Assembly (NCBI RefSeq): GCF_900109825.1
Contig: NZ_FOBL01000008.1
Coordinates: 1 to 64,000, forward strand
Source: Alkalibacterium putridalgicola
GTDB lineage: Bacteria; Bacillota; Bacilli; Lactobacillales; Carnobacteriaceae_A
Direction of reading: 5' to 3'
Length of the DNA stretch: 64,000 nucleotides
The position numbers and the translations under genes were made by a program. Below, piece by piece: positions 1 to 55,100 of the stretch. The notes beneath the pieces were generated by a model. The model saw nothing but the letters and a program-made list of their open reading frames with translations. It had not been told where the DNA came from and ran no database searches. Numbering within the stretch: the first letter of the stretch is position 1; every line of letters starts with the position of its first letter.

Positions 1-168
1 CCTGGCTGACCTGACTGCGACATTTCGACCTCCGAAGTGTTCACTCGCTGATCCTGGCTGACCTGACTGCGACATTTCGGCTACCAAAGTGTTCACTCAT
101 TGATCAATGTACTCATGACTGCGACATCTCGACCGTAAAAGTGTCTATTCAGTCTTTAGTAATAAGTG
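1..168. repeat. 52-base tandem array A (cut by window edge)
   Basis: The word GACTGCGACAT (last copy GACTGCGACAT followed by CTCG) starts at 13, 65 and 117, an exact 52-base period, and is followed in each unit by a GTGTTCACTC-like word. The first unit holds a hairpin: ACATTTCG at 20-27, loop ACCTC, CGAAGTGT at 33-40, with one T-G wobble. The array probably continues left of the window. The same core recurs at the same period near 26.4-26.7 kb. It lies beyond the terminator of the minus-strand gene at 247-1188. Confidence 0.85.
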
Positions 169-246: not shown

Positions 247-1188
247 TTATCCTTCAGTATCAGGATCATCACTCGTTTGTTTGCTGTCGTTTTGCGTAGT
301 GGTGTCAGCCGGTTCTGTGTCATTGGCTGGTTCTTTAGTGTCCGTCTGCTGATCTGAATCTGAAGCGGGCTTCTTGTTTTCCTCTTTTACCGGTTCGTCT
401 GCCGGTTCGTCTTCAACGGGTGTTCCTTCCGTCTGATCTTCATCCGGTTCATCTGTTGAGTCGGGTTCAGATGGGTCGACCGTCCCATCTTCTGTTTCTT
501 CCGTCGGCTCTTCTTTTACTGGATCCGTCGTCTGGTCACCCGTCTCATCCTCTTTATCAGTGGACTCATCTTTTTCTGTCTTTTCGTCAACCTTGTTGGC
601 TGAGTCTTCGTTAGAAGTGTCTGGTTTCACGGACGGTTTTTCCGCGGGCTCGTTGTCTGTCTGGCTTGTCTCGTTTTTGTCAGATGACTGGCTGGTATCT
701 GAGTTACTTGACGAGTCAGTCTTTTGAGATGAATCACTATCTTTTGGCGCTGTCCATTCGGATTCTGATGATGACGAGGCTGTTTCTGCCGTCTCTGTCC
801 ATTCTGTTTCTTCATTTGCCGACTCTTCTTCGACATCTGAAACGTCCGTCTCTTCATCCAGCTCCGACGTTTCAAGGTCTTCTTCTAAGTCCTTATCCGC
901 ATCTTCGTCAACAGCTTCCTCTTTATCGTTGCTGTTATCCGCTTTTTCCAGCTCATCGGTCCGGTCGTCATTCTCCTCTTCAGAAAAACCCTCTTCTTCC
1001 GCCGCATCCACTGCCGAATCCACAGCCTGCAATTCCTGTCGGTCGATACGATGCTGGGACCGTCCGATGCCGATCGTTACAATAATGAACAAAACGAGGA
1101 CCAGTGCTGAAATGACACTTGATGCTGCCTTATTCTCTTTGAGAAATGAAACTAAGGAGTGAAAACTATCAGCAAGTAACTTTTTCAT
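247..1188 (-). CDS. Membrane-anchored acidic low-complexity protein, function unknown
   Basis: I do not recognise a family. The protein is about 313 residues. It has a short basic N-terminus, one hydrophobic segment at about residues 24-43 (ASSVISALVLVLFIIVTIG), then an extended tail made almost only of Glu, Asp, Ser, Thr, Lys and Pro with no folded domain visible. The topology suggests a tail outside the membrane. The start was taken at the ATG at 1188 because AAGGAG lies seven bases upstream; a reading frame start six codons earlier has no such site. The LysM autolysin and PBP1A in this window also carry acidic tails. The gene stands alone, with its own terminator. Confidence 0.7.
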   Translation of the reverse strand: MKKLLADSFHSLVSFLKENKAASSVISALVLVLFIIVTIGIGRSQHRIDRQELQAVDSAVDAAEEEGFSEEENDDRTDELEKADNSNDKEEAVDEDADKDLEEDLETSELDEETDVSDVEEESANEETEWTETAETASSSSESEWTAPKDSDSSQKTDSSSNSDTSQSSDKNETSQTDNEPAEKPSVKPDTSNEDSANKVDEKTEKDESTDKEDETGDQTTDPVKEEPTEETEDGTVDPSEPDSTDEPDEDQTEGTPVEDEPADEPVKEENKKPASDSDQQTDTKEPANDTEPADTTTQNDSKQTSDDPDTEG

Positions 1189-1291
1189 AAGACGTCTCCT
1201 TTTCAACCTAGTTTAATCCAGTATAACACAGCTGCCGCAAACTGATGAGGGCTTTTCGATAAAAAGCTATATATTATATAAGAATAATCAA

Positions 1292-8937: not shown

Positions 8938-9515
8938 CTTTCTTGCTGCGTATTCCGTGAACTCATAGACTACTGTAAGACCCAACTTTGGGAATTCTTC
9001 CTTATTCCAGGAACTCATGCGCTACTGTTCGTGTCACTTTCGGGAATACAGTCTTATTTCCGGAACTCAAGACCTACTGGACGCTCCAGATTTGGGAATT
9101 CTTCCTTATTCCGGGAACTCAAGCGCTACTGGACGCTTCAGATTTGGGAATTCTTCCTTATTCCGGGAACTCAAGCGCTACTGGACGTTCCAGCTTTGGG
9201 AATTCTTCCTTATTCCAGGAACTCAAAGCTTAAAAACCTTGCGAGTTCCGGTTATAGACTGCTATAGCACTATCTCAAAAATCAAATGGTCCAGGAGTTG
9301 CGGTTATCAGCCGGGATAATAGGAGCACGACCCCATTGCTTTATCCGAGTTAGGGTTATAGGCTCTTATAATAGTAACCCAGACTCTCTAGAACTAGCCA
9401 GTTGGGATTATGGCCTGTGATAACAGGAACTCGCTGCCCAGTAACCTAATGAGTTATCGTTATCAGTCCCAATAACAGCATCTCATGTACCTGTAATCTC
9501 CTGAGTTGCGGATAA
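8938..9515. repeat. 52-base tandem array B with conserved hairpin, about 11 units
   Basis: Units start in phase at 8938, 8990, 9042, 9094, 9146, 9198, 9250, 9302, 9354, 9406 and 9458, exactly 52 bases apart. The left half has units like GGGAATTCTTCCTTATTCCG; the right half has GAGTTNNGGTTAT-type units that hardly resemble it, yet the phase is kept. Each unit except the first holds an 18-base hairpin of a 5-bp stem and 8-base loop: GGAAT/ATTCC on the left, GTTAT/ATAAC on the right. No gene covers it. Open frames here are by-products, since 52 is not a multiple of three. It fills the gap between the leuS terminator and the ABC exporter. Confidence 0.9.
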
Positions 9516-26168: not shown

Positions 26169-26180
26169 GTAGTATGATAA

Positions 26181-26206
26181 AAGGAGACGCCTCGGCGTCT
26201 CCTTTT
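26181..26206 (+). terminator. Terminator of yidC
   Basis: GGAGACGCC, loop TC, GGCGTCTCC, then five T residues, 13 bases after the stop. Confidence 0.92.
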
Positions 26207-26228
26207 TCTTTTGCTTTTAAATGGGGTG

Positions 26229-26300
26229 ACGATGTGGCCAAGGCCACATCGTTTCCTTATTGAGATCTTTCAGGTGGTAAGCAATCGCCTGGGCGATTGC
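26229..26300. repeat. Two tight hairpins, 50 bases apart
   Basis: ACGATGTGGCC/GGCCACATCGT at 26229-26252 and GCAATCGCC/GGCGATTGC at 26281-26300 each have only a two-base centre. The centres are at 26240.5 and 26290.5. Their sequences are unrelated, but the spacing is close to the 51-52-base period of the array that starts right after them. Confidence 0.7.
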
Positions 26301-26305
26301 CGTCC

Positions 26306-26745
26306 TTTTAGGTCTTATCTTAGTCGTTGGTGTTTACTCGTCTGCTCTTCTGCTCGTGACTGCGACATTTTGTCCGCCCATCTGTTCACTCATCCGCTTC
26401 TCTGCTCGCGACTGCGACATTTCACCTCCATAACTGTTCACTCATCGGTTCCTCTGCTCGTGACTGCGACATTTCGACCGTCTAATTGTTCACTCATCCG
26501 CTTCTCTGCTCGCGACTGCGACATTTCGTCCGTCTAACTGTTCACTCATCCGCTTCTCTGCTCGCGACTGCGTCATTTCGTGCACCTACCTGTTCACTCA
26601 TCGCCTTCTCTGCTCGCGACTGCGACATTTCGTCCACCTACCTGTTCACTCGACCGCTCCTCTGCTCGTGACTGCGACATTTCATCCACCTAACTGTTCA
26701 CTCATCGCCTTCTCTGCTCGCGACTGCGACATTCTACTCTGAAAT
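26306..26745. repeat. 52-base tandem array D, eight clear units plus one decayed
   Basis: GACTGCG starts at 26358, 26410, 26462, 26514, 26566, 26618, 26670 and 26722, always 52 bases apart. A typical unit reads GACTGCGACATTTCG, a variable six to eight bases, CTGTTCACTCATC, then a CTCTGCTCG end. A decayed unit sits at 26306 (only its TGTTTACTCG part is kept). The core matches array A at the left edge of the window. It lies between convergent genes yidC and the NERD gene. No protein is supported: the period rotates the frame. Confidence 0.9.
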
Positions 26746-54921: not shown

Positions 54922-55100
54922 ATAACTTGTTAAACTGAGCCTTAATCAAAGTACTGCTAAAGTTTGATTAGTGACCAGTTCCTCAACAATTTTCTCAGGA
55001 ACTAGTCTCAATAGAACTTTAGCGACCAGTTCCTCACAAATATGCTCATGAAGTTGTCTCAATAACAGTTTGGTTCTCCACTGACATCATCGAGGAACCT
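54922..55100. repeat. 51-base array F with hairpins, three units
   Basis: GACCAGTTCCTCA starts at 54973 and 55024, 51 bases apart; a decayed unit precedes at 54922. The 54973-55007 hairpin pairs GACnAGTTCCT with AGGAACTnGTC around 13 bases. Another perfect stem, TAATCAAA/TTTGATTA, is at 54943-54970, and GGTTC/GAACC at 55072-55099. It lies between convergent genes pbp1A and ccpA, between their terminators. Confidence 0.7.

Follow-up and report, generated by a model that had tools for sequence, protein, structure and literature searches.

Phased arrays of paired inverted arms at a 52-base pitch in Alkalibacterium: putative sites for a sequence-specific DNA-binding factor

The stretch of 64,000 nucleotides analysed here (the window) is Alkalibacterium (Carnobacteriaceae) DNA that carries the tandem arrays A to D. 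Array D (26331..26733, + strand) lies between a gene coding for a YidC/OxaA family membrane insertase on its left (PF02096; 25188..26168, + strand) and a convergent gene for a NERD-domain protein on its right (PF08378; 26773..27702, - strand). Terminator-like hairpins on the + strand are found behind the yidC gene at 26179..26206, at 26228..26253 and, directly before the array, at 26281..26300; each hairpin of this interval (26179-26305) is a strong palindrome, and a similar order of hairpins is seen in two of the compared genomes (G003 and G004). Array D comprises seven complete 34-bp paired-arm units placed exactly 52 bp apart (starts at 26358, 26410, 26462, 26514, 26566, 26618 and 26670), with a single 3' arm at its left edge (26331) and a single 5' arm at its right edge (26722). 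The original prediction of periodicity across 26306-26745 is thus real, the measured periodic stretch being slightly narrower. In the first unit the 5' arm (26358..26370, + strand) reads GACTGCGACATTT, the 3' arm (26379..26391, - strand) is an inverted half-site ending in TGTTCACTC, and an 18-bp locus-specific linker (26392..26409, unstranded) leads to the next unit. Array A (1..150, + strand), flanked by a gene for an unassigned protein on the - strand (247..1206), has three units within the window (starting at 13, 65 and 117) before the contig start cuts it off. It continues on contig C16, whose own start lies inside array A and which adds two full units; in G004, the flanks that are two contig ends here are contiguous across a single orthologous array. 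Assemblies break within 51/52-bp arrays at further contigs as well (both ends of C49, and C50, in the source genome, G000; both ends of C9 in G001; C84 in G010), and since contig ends so often fall inside arrays, the copy numbers and array lengths in these drafts are minima.

The 52-base unit is common to arrays A and D. With up to two mismatches, the core GACTGCGACATTTCG occurs ten times in the window, thrice in A and seven times in D (26358 to 26670), with every step equal to 52, against a mean of 0.18 in shuffled sequences. The second word, GTTCACTC, begins 11 bases past the core in two units of A and in every unit of D, so that the fixed distance proposed earlier holds for all of these, while the word is degraded in the third unit of A. 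The earlier statement that the remaining bases are alike within a locus and different between loci describes D well (identity over the 18 linker bases 0.84; between A and D 0.23) and A only weakly (0.47), as the edge units of A are degenerate. The same prediction spoke of two distant copies of one family, which is too few. Searching the source genome with the core word at up to one mismatch recovers only array A, its continuation on C16 and array D; a profile built from the 34-bp arm pairs, in contrast, yields 55 matches (E <= 0.05) in at least 12 places, and in G001 117 matches (E <= 0.001) in about twenty. In a sample of 148 genomes of the order, this profile finds the family in just seven, namely five of Alkalibacterium and two of another genus of the same family (g9). 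Matches to the core pattern in named genomes come from A. subtropicum and Marinilactibacillus piezotolerans; a match in Ruminococcus was set aside as a chance hit, there being no array there. Also discarded were carriage of array D on a plasmid, for which there was no match, and occurrence on viral contigs, where the eight matches are about the number estimated by chance. No part of the window matches Rfam 15 at the gathering score.

Alignment of the units reveals a modular anatomy: a pair of inverted arms of about 13 bp surrounds a spacer of about 8 bp, and this 34-bp module is followed by a linker of 17-18 bp. Columns 1-34 hold the arms (GAGT/GACT...ATTT and ...ACTC) with the spacer between them, and columns 35-52 the linker; the 34-bp frame aligns without gaps across units of five species. 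Arm identity between loci comes close to that within them (0.94 in D, 0.90 in A and 0.86 between A and D); whole-unit differences group by locus. In G001, columns compared over 12 loci show identities of 0.97 and 0.94 for the two arms, 0.46 for the spacer and 0.34 for the linker, with 0.25 expected from composition. Arms of these loci, gathered with a profile (the R1 model) that favours loci with similar arms, are 0.90 identical between loci versus 0.92 within, and linkers between loci fall to 0.31, near chance; the same profile also gathered loci of the source genome with a between-locus arm identity of only 0.72, which speaks against pure collection bias. Judged from these alignments, the earlier explanation by local homogenisation after a shared origin accounts for the linkers and the central spacer but fails for the arms. 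Of 92 adjacent spacings in G001, 88 measure exactly 52, and in G007 all 18 are 51. As the linkers are near saturation in sequence but almost devoid of indels, their length appears to be constrained: the sequence is gone and the spacing is retained.

The inverted symmetry varies among arrays. An ungapped dyad score is not significant for arrays A and D; among 68 arrays collected by period alone, dyads are enriched overall (23 at p < 0.05), and some arrays are without them. An exact arm phasing of 21/31 bp in all families had to be dropped, the arm distances being spread mostly over 18-26, and so had strong compensatory covariation in the A/D family, where the covariation is modest. The middle of the G001 arms is non-complementary (TCGACA versus GTGCnn), and this feature is kept at 12 of 12 loci.

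Comparison of orthologous loci, with one genome per species throughout, shows that the arrays occupy identical gene junctions in sister species and contain different words there. Downstream of yidC, a periodic array of 51-52 or 102-105 bp is found, within the sequence read, in eight of the 12 Alkalibacterium genomes, the source genome included; G009 shows the start of an array before a run of N, the contig of G010 ends inside an array, and G005 and G008 have no array at this locus. At the A locus, all six compared species have arrays. When the A and D loci of these six species are compared, arm identity is 0.80 within a genome versus 0.65 and 0.62 within a locus and 0.63 across both (permutation p = 1/720), the linkers giving 0.38 versus 0.28. 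Because the 5' arms served as extraction anchors, the 3' arm was tested alone, and it too follows the genome (p = 0.003). Likewise, in an anchor-free test on the 68 arrays chosen by period only, the nearest neighbour comes from the same genome in 59% of cases, as against 12% expected (p = 0.0005). Hence, arm words follow the genome rather than the locus, and such genome-wide change in concert suggests that some component of the cell reads them.

The A/D words are one of several unrelated families within a single genome, as illustrated in the window by arrays B and C and further among the 68 period-collected arrays. Array B (8951..9226, + strand; 5.3 units of 52) uses the words GGGAACTC and GGGAATTC, and is adjoined by a degenerate array (9243..9480, + strand) with a pitch of about 52 bp and GAGTT..GTTAT..ATAAC..CTC dyads, a similar counterpart of which is present in G004 (C28:212031); the two together (8951-9480) lie between genes for an ABC transporter and a leucyl-tRNA synthetase. 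Array C (54968..55064, + strand), with about two units of 51 and a strong dyad GACCAGTTCCT..AGGAACTAGTC, is placed between convergent genes for a penicillin-binding protein and a LacI-type regulator. Elsewhere in the source genome (G000 C49:78459-78703, locus L208), a second word type, GACCTTGTCATTT..AAATGACAAGGTC, forms near-perfect palindromes at a 51-bp pitch alongside the A/D type, and in G003 loci A and D are occupied by words related to it. A single 105-bp unit in G011 (C27:119835-120249) combines neighbouring dyads that have perfect arms and different letters (GAGTCCTACA..TGTAGGACTC and GAGTGCTACA..TGTAGCACTC), and arrays at three sites of G001 (C3:44516, 49577 and 62681) share yet another word pair, CTTTGCGTGACCTTT and AAAGGGCACGCATTCC, with similar inverted half-sites. 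With several word families in each genome, a single specificity cannot serve every array.

Across 1.9 Mb sampled as stretches rather than whole genomes from 12 Alkalibacterium and one Marinilactibacillus, tandem-repeat periods cluster sharply at 51-52 and at multiples of this length, with about 42 arrays per Mb. Arrays of the 52 type are also present in 200 kb of G021, a second genus of Carnobacteriaceae, and none were seen in 200 kb of G016, of the same family. They sit behind gene ends and, with gene intervals delimited by a simple open-frame caller, are markedly concentrated between convergent genes: an array is present in 33 of the 169 convergent intervals but in only 34 of the 804 remaining ones (odds ratio 5.5, p = 4e-10).

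We posit, at roughly even odds (about 0.5), that these are phased arrays of a putative sequence-specific DNA-binding factor. The arms, whose identity is kept genome-wide while the linkers are free, behave like sites read in trans; they would be read as DNA by such a factor, which is probably dimeric and cooperative. Its specificity might drift between species, with the arms at many loci of one genome following. The linker and central spacer would then keep their length and the helical pitch, each unit spanning about five turns, but carry no information in their sequence, which could drift and be evened out only within a locus, through slippage or unequal exchange. Given their positions behind gene ends and between convergent genes, the arrays would probably serve as nucleoprotein blocks with a structural or insulating role. 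Counting against this reading are the coexistence of unrelated word families in one genome, the bias of the locus collection towards similar arms, the dyad scores of A and D, which lack significance, and the modest covariation within the A/D family.

The main rival to the recognition of DNA words holds that the arrays act as RNA, with read-through from gene 3' ends producing strings of hairpins that serve as stabilisers, decoys, sRNA precursors or attenuators of convergent transcription. This is unlikely, though a serious contender. Arrays are indeed located behind gene ends, and B. coagulans transcribes arrays of a related 52-nt kind (PMC8625621). Arms from the two sides are a better match when both come from one genome than when they come from different ones (p = 0.0018), and those of G003 and G011 are near-perfect complements despite their altered sequence. 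Folding of the arrays also beats that of shuffled sequences, with z of -2.7 and -2.5 on the two strands and -0.3 for the control; however, it does so equally on both strands, and single D units, tried as candidates for an RNA hairpin, fold no better than shuffles. Nor is there any sense advantage over antisense for arrays in tandem context (p = 0.31), and G-T mismatches between arms are about as frequent as A-C ones (41 versus 37), in what is a weak test as mismatches are shared by descent. The absence of a strand preference in the folding, sense and mismatch tests favours DNA-word recognition, and the non-complementary middle of the arms at the 12 G001 loci points to recognition of sequence rather than pairing. 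Moreover, separate hairpins would need no linker of fixed length.

Constancy of the linker length also bears on a neutral origin, in which slippage and unequal exchange, with ectopic conversion now and then, generate satellites and homogenise them wherever insertions are tolerated, the pitch being merely inherited. Homogeneous units at each locus with locus-specific linkers, whole-unit differences that group by locus, and placement where promoters are absent are all in keeping with this proposal. Nevertheless, conversion should move linkers along with arms, whereas between loci the linkers are near chance and the arms 90% identical; the spacers are near saturation yet almost without indels; and one pitch recurs in word families that are unrelated, as well as outside the genus. 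We accordingly view neutral satellites as rather improbable. Spread of REP/BIME-like elements by a RAYT (Y1 transposase) is far less plausible: the alternating inverted repeats, extragenic and convergent positions at gene 3' ends and species-specific words would fit, but Y1_Tnp is missing from seven of the 12 genomes, including the array-rich G001, G003, G006, G007 and G011, which excludes it as a general driver, and the source genome has only partial Y1_Tnp matches. The fixed pitch, conserved loci and old, diverged linkers likewise stand apart from such elements. The alternation of conserved words with variable stretches of a set length might recall a remnant CRISPR-like array of repeats and variable spacers. 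This is very improbable, as the linkers of one array are near-copies rather than dissimilar spacers between identical repeats, each unit has two conserved words, and each genome holds dozens of arrays.

Tandem repeats of 52 nt with constant length and variable sequence have been published in Bacillus and other Firmicutes (Subirana & Messeguer 2020/2021; PMC8161180, PMC8625621), in a search limited to at least four units per array, and their conservation between strains is only partial. The A/D-type arrays belong to this class (PMC8161180): they share its length of 51-53 nt, its non-coding nature, its several families of equal length and differing sequence per genome and its short words, which are specific to a species and often accompanied by their reverse within one repeat; array D has seven complete units, and array A three plus two on C16. 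They differ in being found in Carnobacteriaceae (Lactobacillales), another order, in being resolved into arms in inverted orientation and spacers that are fixed in length but free in sequence, and in their conserved loci with replaced words, arm sharing across loci and convergent enrichment. What is new here is the anatomy of the unit and the membership in another order, the class itself being already published. The STAR elements of Staphylococcus, also a member of the Firmicutes, are likewise intergenic and consist of short conserved cores in tandem; their core is different, and they are not known to contain a 52-bp paired-arm module. The REP/BIME elements of Enterobacteria and Pseudomonas (PMC2817692, PMC3733652) resemble the present arrays in their extragenic inverted modules, alternating orientation and regular spacing, but the latter lack a general RAYT, have a pitch of 51-52 and are wholly different in sequence between families and species.

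More broadly, and quite tentatively, families of DNA-binding factors may co-evolve rapidly and genome-wide with arrays of phased paired sites at fixed addresses between convergent genes, their words being replaced in concert at many loci, as a bacterial analogue of the co-evolution of satellites and their binding proteins. The published class combines a constant length of 52 nt with variable sequence, a combination so far without explanation. The anatomy of conserved arms and free spacers narrows the range of explanations and turns the matter into a testable question, namely the identity of the factor that reads the arms and the reason for keeping the pitch. Loci that stay in place while their words are replaced in concert offer a natural experiment, in which comparing species could lead to that factor.
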